Shown here: positions 20,580 to 24,667 of the stretch, in pieces | How positions within the stretch are numbered: position 1 is the first letter of the stretch | Layout: the number at the start of each line of letters is the position of its first letter | From: Pantoea allii | GTDB lineage: Bacteria; Pseudomonadota; Gammaproteobacteria; Enterobacterales; Enterobacteriaceae | Assembly: GCF_002307475.1 (NCBI RefSeq) | Contig: NZ_NTMH01000037.1 | Span: forward strand, 1 to 64,000 | Reading direction: 5' to 3' | Length of the DNA stretch: 64,000 nt | Position numbers and translations under genes: made by a program | The notes under the pieces: generated by a model | What the model was told of the DNA's origin: nothing | The model's database searches: none | The model's input: the letters and a program-made list of their open reading frames with translations, nothing else

Positions 20580-22004
20580 ATGAGTACAGAGATTAAAACT
20601 CAGGTCGTGGTACTTGGGGCAGGTCCTGCAGGTTACTCTGCAGCCTTTCGTTGCGCTGACTTAGGTCTGGAAACCGTACTGGTTGAGCGCTACAGCACCC
20701 TCGGCGGTGTCTGTCTGAACGTAGGCTGTATCCCGTCTAAAGCGCTGCTGCACGTTGCTAAAGTGATTGAAGAAGCGAAAGCGCTGGAAGAACACGGCAT
20801 TGTGTTTGGTCAGCCGCAAACGGATATCAACAAAATCCGCAGCTGGAAAGAGAAAGTCATTAACCAGCTGACTGGCGGCCTGTCAGGCATGGCCAAAGGT
20901 CGTAAAGTTACTGTGGTTAACGGCCTGGGTAAATTTACCGGTGCGAATACACTGGTCGTCGAAGGTGAAGGTGGGGCAACCACGATTAACTTCGATAACG
21001 CCATCATCGCTGCAGGTTCACGTCCAATCGAACTGCCATTCATTCCTCATGAAGATCCACGCGTGTGGGATTCTACCGATGCGCTGGAGCTGAAAGAAGT
21101 GCCTAAGCGTCTTCTGGTCATGGGCGGCGGCATTATCGGTCTGGAAATGGCCACCGTTTACCATGCGCTGGGTTCAGAGATCGACGTGGTTGAAATGTTT
21201 GACCAGGTTATCCCGGCTGCGGATAAAGACGTGGTTAAAGTCTTCACCAAGCGTATCAGCAAGAAATTTAACCTGATGCTGGAAACCAAGGTCACCGCCG
21301 TTGAAGCTAAAGACGACGGTATCTACGTTTCAATGGAAGGCAAAAAAGCGCCAGGCGAAGCCCAGCGTTATGATGCCGTTCTGGTGGCGATTGGTCGTGT
21401 GCCAAACGGTAAAGGCATGGACGCTGACAAAGCTGGCGTTGAAGTCGACGACCGTGGCTTTATCCGCGTTGACAAGCAAATGCGTACCAACGTGCCGCAC
21501 ATCTACGCGATCGGCGATATCGTCGGTCAGCCGATGCTGGCGCACAAAGGCGTGCATGAAGGCCACGTGGCTGCAGAAGTCATTTCAGGTCTGAAGCACT
21601 ACTTCGATCCGAAAGTGATCCCATCCATTGCCTATACTGAGCCAGAAGTTGCCTGGGTCGGTCTGACCGAGAAAGAAGCGAAAGAGAAAGGCATCAGCTA
21701 TGAAACCGCTACGTTCCCGTGGGCGGCATCAGGCCGTGCGATTGCTTCTGACTGTGCAGACGGCATCACCAAACTGATTTTCGACAAAGAAACCCACCGC
21801 GTTATCGGTGGTGCCATTGTCGGCACCAACGGCGGTGAGCTGCTGGGTGAAATTGGTCTGGCTATTGAAATGGGCTGTGATGCAGAAGATATCGCACTGA
21901 CCATTCATGCCCACCCAACCCTGCATGAGTCAGTAGGACTGGCGGCTGAGATCTTTGAAGGCAGCATCACTGATTTGCCTAACGCGAAAGCGAAAAAGAA
22001 ATAA
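20580..22004 (+). CDS. lpdA: Dihydrolipoyl dehydrogenase (E3)
   Basis: FAD enzyme that reoxidises dihydrolipoyl groups with NAD+, shared by the pyruvate and 2-oxoglutarate dehydrogenase complexes and the glycine cleavage system. The 474 residues equal E. coli. FAD-binding GAGPAGYSAAFRCADLG, the redox disulphide GGVCLNVGCIPSK, the NAD site GGGIIGLEMATVYHALG and the active-site His in HAHPTLHES are present. The second of two adjacent ATGs (20580) is favoured by SD GAGG spacing. It is preceded by a terminator and a structured leader, so it can be expressed apart from aceEF. Confidence 0.97.
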   Translation: MSTEIKTQVVVLGAGPAGYSAAFRCADLGLETVLVERYSTLGGVCLNVGCIPSKALLHVAKVIEEAKALEEHGIVFGQPQTDINKIRSWKEKVINQLTGGLSGMAKGRKVTVVNGLGKFTGANTLVVEGEGGATTINFDNAIIAAGSRPIELPFIPHEDPRVWDSTDALELKEVPKRLLVMGGGIIGLEMATVYHALGSEIDVVEMFDQVIPAADKDVVKVFTKRISKKFNLMLETKVTAVEAKDDGIYVSMEGKKAPGEAQRYDAVLVAIGRVPNGKGMDADKAGVEVDDRGFIRVDKQMRTNVPHIYAIGDIVGQPMLAHKGVHEGHVAAEVISGLKHYFDPKVIPSIAYTEPEVAWVGLTEKEAKEKGISYETATFPWAASGRAIASDCADGITKLIFDKETHRVIGGAIVGTNGGELLGEIGLAIEMGCDAEDIALTIHAHPTLHESVGLAAEIFEGSITDLPNAKAKKK

Positions 22005-22022
22005 GTCTCAGGACAGAAATAG

Positions 22023-22047
22023 CGGCCCCTTATGGGGCCGTTTTTTT
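22023..22047 (+). terminator. Terminator after lpdA
   Basis: CGGCCCC, loop TTAT, GGGGCCG and seven T residues begin about 18 bp after the stop. A strong intrinsic terminator. Confidence 0.9.
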
Positions 22048-22088: not shown

Positions 22089-22097
22089 GGGCGCCTG
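22089..22097 (-). promoter_or_regulatory. fbi-like 3' element of the hok mRNA
   Basis: On the minus strand this reads CAGGCGCCC, the exact complement of the mRNA 5' end GGGCGCCTG at 22454-22462. In hok mRNAs such 3' fold-back inhibition (fbi) elements lock the full-length transcript in an inactive form until 3' trimming. It lies 59 nt after the hok stop codon. Confidence 0.65.
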
Positions 22098-22117
22098 CGC
22101 TAACACATTCACACTGG

Positions 22118-22145
22118 CAAAAATGGCGGAGTTACCCCCGCCATT
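22118..22145 (-). terminator. Hairpin after the hok stop codon
   Basis: AATGGCGG, 8-nt loop, CCGCCATT and TTT, starting 11 nt after the hok stop. It could be the stable 3' hairpin that protects the trimmed hok mRNA, or a terminator. The fbi-like element lies beyond it. Confidence 0.55.
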
Positions 22146-22155
22146 AACGAAGTTT

Positions 22156-22302
22156 TTACTGCCTGGTTTCGTAATTCAAGACAGCCGAAAGTTCAGCGCT
22201 CATTATTCTGAGGCGAAGTTCACATAATGAACTTCGGTTCGATAAGCTCAAACCTAAAAGAATTAACCCGCTAATAACAAGTAAACCGTATTTCGACTTC
22301 AT
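22156..22302 (-). CDS. Hok/Gef-family type I toxin (small membrane peptide)
   Basis: A 48-residue peptide with the Hok/Gef hallmarks: a charged start (MKSKYG), one hydrophobic helix (about residues 6-20, LLVISGLILLGLSL) and the conserved RSSLCELRLR motif, followed by a helix ending in LNYETRQ where other Hok proteins have AAFLAYE. Family members insert in the inner membrane and collapse the membrane potential when antisense control fails. ATG 22302 follows GAGAGGTGCCACC. Its own promoter, mRNA end pairing and a likely antisense RNA are recorded separately. It may be active or a relic; residues 33-38 (IMSAEL) replace the usual RxGxTEV, so activity is uncertain. Confidence 0.88.
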   Translation of the reverse strand: MKSKYGLLVISGLILLGLSLSNRSSLCELRLRIMSAELSAVLNYETRQ

Positions 22303-22441
22303 GGTGGCACCTCTCTTGATTTTTATCGAGTGAGGGACTACCCTGACAGTGTTGAGGTGTTAGGGTGGTTCCCCCGCTTGCATTCGTTGAATAGTGAATG
22401 TGAGCGGTTCCTTCCTCTTTCCACCTCAGGTTCTCACCCAA
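22271..22441 (-). CDS. Mok-like overlapping leader frame
   Basis: A frame running from TTG 22441 through the leader and over the hok start, stopping inside hok at 22271 (56 codons), with no stop in between. In hok/sok systems translation of hok is coupled to such a mok frame, and Sok RNA blocks mok. The start is a guess: no ATG or GTG was found in this frame, and no strong SD is evident. The encoded sequence is not expected to be conserved. Confidence 0.35.
   Translation of the reverse strand: MGENLRWKEEGTAHIHYSTNASGGTTLTPQHCQGSPSLDKNQERCHHEVEIRFTCY
22351..22425 (+). ncRNA. Probable Sok-type antisense RNA
   Basis: Plus-strand RNA antisense to the hok/mok leader. A stem at 22376-22385 with 22396-22405 pairs completely only as plus-strand RNA (two G-U pairs). 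A possible promoter is TTGATT (22316-22321), 17 bp, TACCCT (22339-22344); the -10 is weak. Ends are approximate. By analogy with R1 Sok it would bind the leader and stop toxin translation. Confidence 0.4.
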
Positions 22442-22453
22442 AGCAAAAAGCCT

Positions 22454-22462
22454 CAGGCGCCC
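22454..22462 (-). promoter_or_regulatory. tac-like 5' end of the hok mRNA
   Basis: Minus-strand GGGCGCCTG followed by AGGCTTT closely resembles the 5' end of plasmid R1 hok mRNA (GGCGCTTGAGGCTTT, from memory). It is exactly complementary to 22089-22097. Confidence 0.65.
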
Positions 22463-22468
22463 AACCGC

Positions 22469-22497
22469 AGTCTACGCATTGATTATTTTATTGTCTC
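22469..22497 (-). promoter_or_regulatory. Promoter of the hok mRNA
   Basis: GAGACA (22492-22497), a 17-bp spacer and TAGACT (22469-22474), four of six matches each. Transcription would begin at about 22462, precisely at the tac-like sequence, which supports the assignment. Confidence 0.6.
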
Positions 22498-22656: not shown

Positions 22657-23568
22657 TTAATTACTCACTTCGTTATTATTAAAACGTAGCCAGTCAATAA
22701 AATGACGTAAAGGTGCTGAGACATAGCGCCTGCCGGGATAGTAAAGCCAGAATCCTTCCGCATTGCCTGTAAAGTCACTTAATAGCTCAACGAGTTCGCC
22801 ACGTTGCAGGCTGGGATTCACGGCTGCCTGTTGCAGAAATGCGATGCCTGCGCCCGCGACAGTGGCCTGCAAAATCCGCGTGTTGTTGTCCAGTACCAAT
22901 GGGCCACGCACGGCGATCTCCTGTTTTTTTCCTGCATTCCAGAATTCCCAGCGATAGCGTCGGCCACTGGGAAAACGCCGTTCGATACAGGGAAACTGAA
23001 GCAGTTCATCCGGTGTTTGCGGTGTACCATGACGTTCGATAAACGCCGGGCTTGCGACCACCAGGGTGCGCATTGCCGGACCAAAGGGCAGGGCGATCAT
23101 GTCCTGTGCCAGCACATCGCCGTAGCGAATACCTGCATCAAAACCCGCTTCCAGGATATCGACCAGCGCATCGTTACTGTCAATTTCCAGTGTGATGTCC
23201 GGGTACTGCTGGATAAACGGCAGAATCAAGCTATCAAAAAACAGCGCTTCTGCAGAACGCGGCATATTGAGCTTTAGCGTGCCATGCGGACGGGCACGCC
23301 AGTCATTAAGTTCATCTACCGCCTGCGACAGATCGACCAGCGCGGGCTGAATACGCTGCAGAAAATATTCGCCCGCTTCGGTCAGTGAGACACTGCGTGT
23401 GGTGCGGTTAAGCAGCCTTACGCCGAGTCGTTGCTCAAAATGGCGCATGGCGTGGCTCAGCGCCGACGGCGTAACGTTACGCGCCTGTGCAGCCTTACGA
23501 AAGCTACGGTGGTGCGCGATGGCGCTGAACATTTCCAGTTCCTGCAGGGTTGCCCGCGAGAGTGTCAT
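22657..23568 (-). CDS. LysR-family transcriptional regulator
   Basis: A 303-residue LTTR. The N-terminal HTH (about residues 4-63) reads LQELEMFSAIAHHRSFRKAAQARNVT... with RLGVRLLNRTTRSVSLTEAG; a two-lobed substrate-binding domain follows. ATG 23568 (MTLSRATLQELEMF) is the family start; the upstream in-frame extension lies in the operator region and was rejected. It is divergent from an aldo/keto reductase with 100 bp between starts that contain a LysR-type dyad, so it probably regulates that gene and itself. The inducer is unknown. It resembles the large YafC/DmlR-like group, which gives no specific function. Confidence 0.88.
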   Translation of the reverse strand: MTLSRATLQELEMFSAIAHHRSFRKAAQARNVTPSALSHAMRHFEQRLGVRLLNRTTRSVSLTEAGEYFLQRIQPALVDLSQAVDELNDWRARPHGTLKLNMPRSAEALFFDSLILPFIQQYPDITLEIDSNDALVDILEAGFDAGIRYGDVLAQDMIALPFGPAMRTLVVASPAFIERHGTPQTPDELLQFPCIERRFPSGRRYRWEFWNAGKKQEIAVRGPLVLDNNTRILQATVAGAGIAFLQQAAVNPSLQRGELVELLSDFTGNAEGFWLYYPGRRYVSAPLRHFIDWLRFNNNEVSN

Positions 23569-23618
23569 TGATGAGTTTTCCTCACTGAATCGGCAAAAAT
23601 AGCGCAATTGTTGTTGTG

Positions 23619-23639
23619 ATTGTTGAGGATTATAACAAT
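23619..23639. promoter_or_regulatory. LysR-type operator between the regulator and the reductase
   Basis: ATTGTT-N9-AACAAT is a dyad containing the T-N11-A pattern typical of LysR sites. Further ATTGTTG/CAACAAT copies flank it. It is centred 40 bp upstream of the reductase start. Confidence 0.55.
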
Positions 23640-23641
23640 AA

Positions 23642-24667
<1,026 letters not shown>

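Follow-up and report, generated by a model that had tools for sequence, protein, structure and literature searches.

Within the window (the whole 64,000-nucleotide stretch of Pantoea allii DNA that was analyzed), the region 3' of lpd very probably contains a chromosomal hok/sok locus, a type I toxin-antitoxin system that is inherited vertically in Pantoea and lacks the canonical mok. Judged from its sequence, the locus is a real, old, and selected member of the hok/sok family, located at a fixed chromosomal site, with a divergent peptide and without a canonical mok. The first-pass annotation had proposed an intact or recently intact, perhaps divergent chromosomal type I hok/sok locus; this proposal held up, as indicated by a match to RF01794, orthologs in 18 of 60 genomes, a low dN/dS, covarying 5' helices, and a conserved Sok promoter and hairpin. 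Counted against this reading is the absence or breakage of the locus in 42 of the 60 genomes. We take the hok/sok system of plasmid R1 to be a member of the closest known family.

Locus architecture and family identity

The locus is located between lpd, which ends at 22004, and a LysR gene on the minus strand (22657-23670), as originally placed. A hairpin predicted from the sequence as the lpd terminator (22021-22042, plus strand) lies between lpd and the hok locus. The four items on which the first-pass annotation was built were all recovered. The toxin frame (22156-22302, minus strand) comprises 48 codons and a stop and encodes a hydrophobic segment followed by RSSLCELRLR; the translation of 22302-22156 is MKSKYGLLVISGLILLGLSLSNRSSLCELRLRIMSAELSAVLNYETRQ. 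A predicted hok promoter (22469-22497, minus strand) consists of a -35-like GAGACA (22497-22492), a 17-nt spacer, and the -10 element TAGACT (22474-22469), which is identical in all 18 lpd-site orthologs. This promoter places the start on the tac-like 5' end, and the predicted mRNA reads GGGCGCCTGAGG from 22462. A consensus promoter scan of the window listed neither the hok promoter nor the Sok promoter described below. The predicted full-length hok mRNA (22089-22462, minus strand), supported by its fold and by the RF01794 match, begins with the 5' element tac (GGGCGCCTG, 22462-22454) and ends with the 3' element fbi (CAGGCGCCC, 22089-22097), which is the exact 9-nt complement of the 5' end. 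The hairpin 3' of the hok stop was found at 22145-22122 on the minus strand; it corresponds to a helix of the ortholog consensus (columns 332-353) in which both sides have changed.

For the RNA spanning 22462-22089, the predicted folding energy is -142.7 kcal/mol (z -6.48); not one of 100 shuffled sequences reached this stability, and the best fold of the full-length RNA brings the 5' and 3' ends together. The four items exceed what is expected by chance, since this z value is accompanied by an RF01794 score above the gathering score and by purifying selection on the orthologs. In some Pantoea genomes the pair formed by the LysR gene and an aldo-keto reductase gene (22657-24667 in the window) is missing or shortened, and acnB is nearer.

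An Rfam scan matched RF01794 ('sok') at 22300-22462 on the minus strand with 64.4 bits (gathering cut-off 59), the sole Rfam match above the gathering score in the window. Among 60 genomes searched, 36 of them from the genus, RF01794 matches were found at 12 lpd-site loci; only the window's locus scored above the gathering score, the others reaching 24.8-57.5 bits, and the intact hok beside lpd in one genome (G003) gave no RF01794 match. Although it is named 'sok', this model covers the sense strand of the hok leader up to the hok AUG and thus describes the target strand, not Sok.

The window peptide matched the Pfam family HOK_GEF (PF01848) with an E-value of 0.004 and 17.2 bits, below the curated cut-off of 22, and two Hok models of NCBIfam at 27.1 and 21.2 bits, far below their cut-offs. 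A protein search returned six relatives, each 48 aa long and 63-98% identical to the window peptide; two of these are named Hok/Gef family protein, one of them from Pantoea wallisii, and four carry a precomputed PF01848 annotation. HOK_GEF matched all 15 aligned relatives at E-values up to 1 (best 5.6e-07), and the residues invariant in this 15-sequence alignment include R23, L26-R30 (LCELR), A36, E37, S39, A40, and E45. The comparison with Hok/Gef profiles that the first-pass annotation had suggested therefore gave matches for all the relatives at these E-values and a score below the cut-off for the window peptide itself. The window tail RIMSAELSAVLNYETRQ agrees with its suggestion of a divergent subtype.

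The position of the frame in an intergenic spacer and its Pfam score under the cut-off would also be expected of a chance frame. However, we consider this scarcely credible and rejected it, since the RF01794 match, the fold z value, the conservation of the helices, and the existence of 18 orthologs, each exactly 48 codons long, at a dN/dS of 0.22 contradict it.

Orthologs beside lpd and their selection

Of the 61 genomes examined from the genus, 60 contain a detected lpd, and we inspected about 1.8 kb 3' of lpd in the 59 other than the source genome. An intact 48-codon hok is present beside lpd in 18 of the 60 lpd-bearing genomes (window included), DNA remnants of hok in four (G002, G010, G017, G021), and nothing detectable at this site in the remaining 38. 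Among the matches listed, the ortholog adjoins lpd in Pantoea stewartii, P. dispersa, P. endophytica, Pantoea sp. SOD02, and a Pantoea MAG. A record labelled Enterobacter ludwigii (L007, CEFQ01000001.1) has Pantoea-like lpd, acnB, and hok, and its label is doubtful.

The lpd phylogeny places the 18 carriers in several clades, and genomes without the locus are nested among them; an ancestral lpd-site locus with repeated loss fits this tree. The median pairwise dN/dS is 0.22 (range 0 to 0.48) for 124 of the 153 ortholog pairs, the other 29 pairs having been dropped because they had no dS above 0.1 or an undefined dS. The occurrence of an intact copy at lpd in 18 of the 60 genomes, this dN/dS, and 5' helices maintained through compensatory changes argue for a vertically kept chromosomal hok/sok locus, and the conservation in other Pantoea genomes that the first-pass annotation had proposed to look for was found. 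One hok/sok copy has remained in place on the chromosome during a large part of the Pantoea radiation, its peptide under purifying selection even as the locus was lost several times, a combination that makes a host benefit testable through the comparison of sister species.

In one close relative (G010), the hok start codon is lost, a stop is present at codon 23, and the Sok -10 element is changed. Its RNA folds at -104.4 kcal/mol, compared with -140.7 to -159.5 kcal/mol in the 18 intact orthologs; in this pseudogene, all parts of the locus have decayed together. Decay of the frame in close relatives, which the first-pass annotation had counted, together with a missing transcript, as grounds for abandoning its reading, therefore does occur in this one relative. 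The broken hok of G010, together with the four remnants and 38 absences among the 60 genomes, also bears on the idea that the window locus is a dying relic whose peptide or switch is no longer functional in the source genome. We regard this as quite improbable: between the window and P. stewartii (G011), the hok frame has accumulated six silent changes and one replacement, and the 5' helices, the tac-fbi pairing, and the Sok promoter are all intact in the window. At the lpd site of G017 (locus L079), the hok body is gone, while the leader and a Sok-promoter-like stretch are retained, an orphan antitoxin remnant.

In an order-wide search of 295 genomes, the peptide alignment matched ten (three of the genus, and seven others at 26-32 bits). 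No lpd was found in the flanking stretches of 2.3-3.1 kb around the seven matches outside the genus. The search for a second hok in the source genome gave a single weak match (E 0.08), located on contig C37, and RF01794 matched nowhere else in that genome. A tblastn search (E up to 0.1) of 72,556 plasmid and 50,697 phage records gave no match with an insensitive query (48 aa, low-complexity filter). A mobile origin of the window copy was considered and set aside; since the search returned no Hok of any kind, its silence means little beyond close relatives having gone unseen in these records.

Folding of the leader and the antisense RNA

We compared the predicted helices of the mRNA 5' end in an alignment of the 18 orthologs. 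The first is a 5' hairpin of nine pairs (22436-22458, minus strand; alignment columns 5-13 with 19-27), of the type for which the term 'metastable hairpin' is used in hok. All 162 of its 162 cells are paired, and three pairs are changed on both sides. The second is a competing tac-stem (22416-22451, minus strand), in which 22451-22438 pairs with 22429-22416 (columns 12-25 with 41-54); here 249 of 252 cells are paired, with four pairs changed on both sides. The 5' hairpin and the tac-stem are mutually exclusive. The ten pairs between tac and fbi are formed in 160 of 180 cells with one pair changed on both sides, and the first five pairs do not vary among the 18 orthologs. When the same pairs were moved by one to three columns as a control, 25-57% of the cells were paired.

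When the full-length RNAs were folded, 16 of the 18 orthologs had 8-10 of their 15 leading bases paired with the final 25 nt; in the best folds of the other two (G001 and G066), this fold-back is weak, with only three of the 5' bases paired to the 3' end. When the last 45 nt were removed in silico, the 5' end mostly refolded locally. The full-length and trimmed folds predicted for the lpd loci follow the hok pattern. For hok, one report describes 3' processing that releases the 5'-3' fold-back (PMC8167048).

Sequence features alone point to an antisense Sok that has a promoter of its own and a terminator hairpin over the leader. The predicted Sok promoter (22316-22344, plus strand) has the -35 element TTGATT (22316-22321), a 17-nt spacer, and the -10 element TACCCT (22339-22344). 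The TTG of the -35 element and the 17-nt spacer are kept in all 18 orthologs, and the -10 element is TACCCT in 17 of them and TACACT in P. stewartii (G011). The predicted Sok RNA has approximate ends at 22351 and 22420 (plus strand) and a hairpin at 22374-22407; a strong Sok hairpin is predicted in all 18 orthologs. The tail following the hairpin in the window contains no clean T run. By eye, a mini-frame (ATG-TCA-GGG-TAG) is seen in the leader of several orthologs, overlapping the Sok -10 element on the opposite strand.

We infer the transcripts, their trimming, the silencing, and the toxicity along the following lines. The tac-fbi pairing would lock the full-length hok mRNA. Trimming of the 3' end would remove fbi, and the 5' end would refold. 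Sok, transcribed from the opposite strand, would bind the leader and silence the trimmed mRNA through cleavage of the duplex; in most orthologs, Sok may also mask the hok ribosome site. Once Sok is exhausted, the peptide would be made and would damage the cell's own inner membrane.

The missing canonical mok and a candidate RNA switch

In the regulation described in the same report, Sok blocks mok, a frame that overlaps hok and is translationally coupled to it (PMC8167048). In E. coli K-12, mokC starts 57 nt and mokB 58 nt 5' of hok, and the annotated sok covers that start. We searched for a start at -53 to -60 with a frame reaching hok. Such a canonical mok start is present in both E. coli K-12 loci and in none of the 18 lpd-site orthologs. 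Among 20 Pantoea loci at other sites, 12 have it; when only the 16 whose hok frame is readable are counted, the number is 10. The 'mok' in the hok/mok/sok title of the first-pass annotation consequently had to be dropped: the lpd loci show no mok that starts some 57 nt 5' of hok, overlaps hok, and is covered by Sok. Three similar control loci (L018-L020) are also without mok, yet score above the RF01794 gathering score. The loss of mok is therefore not confined to the lpd site, and we treat mok as a feature of the canonical circuit and not of the family. Among the titles and abstract openings surveyed in the openly licensed literature, we found no account of the lpd-site locus or of a mok-free hok/sok; a description elsewhere is possible.

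The lpd loci could instead use a non-canonical mok, either a frame shortened to start between -35 and -19 or one with an unusual start codon, with Sok acting only through mok. In 17 of the 18 orthologs, an ATG, GTG, or TTG occurs at -35 to -19 in a frame ending at or inside hok. In one ortholog (G034), an ATG lies at -79. Outside the window, mok may thus persist in a shortened or shifted form. The +2 frame between -60 and hok is open in ten orthologs, including the window. However, this frame is interrupted in the other eight, a ribosome-site-like GAGG, GGAG, or AGGA is missing between -80 and -50 in 17 of the 18 loci, and the starts at -35 to -19 fall outside the stretch predicted to be covered by Sok (about -50 to -115). 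The window, the one ortholog not among these 17, has no such start anywhere from -80 to -12. Taken together, we consider a non-canonical mok unlikely.

We also tentatively consider, as one possibility and not the leading expectation, that the lpd-site loci form a branch of hok/sok that has no mok and relies on an RNA switch in place of translational coupling. In the folding model, arm A (22371-22380, minus strand), which lies where the ribosome site of a canonical mok would be, pairs with arm B (22327-22338, minus strand), which lies just before the hok ribosome site. Arm B may alternatively pair with a stretch (22304-22316, minus strand) that includes the hok ribosome site AGAGAGG (22316-22310). 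Without Sok, arm A would hold arm B and leave the ribosome site open; Sok would take arm A, and the freed arm B would mask the site, so that Sok would silence hok directly by strand displacement. The lineage of the window would represent a tightened form, masked in both states. If Sok does silence hok without mok, the best-known type I toxin-antitoxin system can be rewired at a central step and still keep its folding switch.

The ten pairs of the A:B helix are formed in 175 of 180 cells over the 18 loci, with four pairs changed on both sides, compared with 34-46% in slid controls; the window forms eight of the ten. For the helix between arm B and the ribosome site (B:SD), 164 of 198 cells are paired and one pair is changed on both sides, which is weak support, since three of six slid controls (35-60% paired) also contain one such pair. 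The window forms only 5 of the 11 B:SD pairs in the same register.

To evaluate the switch, the stretch covered by Sok was forced to be single-stranded, and the predicted openness of the hok site was compared. This lowered the predicted openness by at least 0.1 in 12 of the 18 lpd loci, that of P. endophytica among them, and in 2 of 18 controls (16 from Pantoea, two from K-12); because the 18 genomes are related, the 12 switch-type loci do not represent 12 events. Four of 22 controls (L010, L016, L035, L036) were left out because they have no readable hok frame of 44-60 codons, and two of these four count among the 12 of 20 mok-positive Pantoea loci; L018 and L024 were retained despite damaged-looking frames. 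The six lpd loci without a drop of 0.1 are the window, G011, G033, G005, G069, and G027. In the window, the openness changes from 0.23 to 0.25, and the site is predicted to be masked with and without Sok. This lack of a Sok-responsive ribosome site, along with the missing mok start, is the further point that would be expected of a relic. In 100 shuffles of each leader, a drop of at least 0.1 combined with a B:SD gain of at least 5 was obtained 0 times for G022, once for G063, three times for G001, and twice for G000; the observed drop (minimum 0.1) was reached in 0, 7, 6, and 14 shuffles per 100, respectively.

Compared with known systems, the lpd locus resembles hokC/mokC/sokC and hokB/mokB/sokB of E. 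coli K-12 in its small membrane peptide with an LCE[IL]R-type motif, its RF01794 leader, its tac and fbi ends, and an antisense Sok starting 5' of the hok start. It differs from them in having no mok start at -53 to -60 (-57 and -58 in K-12), in the peptide tail RIMSAELSAVLNYETRQ, in the fixed lpd site, and in a longer arm A/arm B helix. The chromosomal hok-sok described for Erwinia amylovora, in which high hok expression is reported to be lethal, is similar in being chromosomal and in a plant-associated relative (PMC7821729). Other Pantoea hok/sok loci (e.g., L009, L013, and L021) share the leader model, with scores of up to 136 bits, whereas they differ in tails such as RTGHMEVAAVMDYE or RDNQREVAASMAYE, in the mok start present in 12 of 20, and in the rarity of Sok-dependent masking of the hok site among the controls, K-12 included. 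Tandem head-to-tail copies of the hok/sok leader, about 535-545 bp apart, occur in three genomes: three copies in G005 (C3:104938-106156) and two each in G029 (C3:50684-51382) and G033 (C8:117931-118621).
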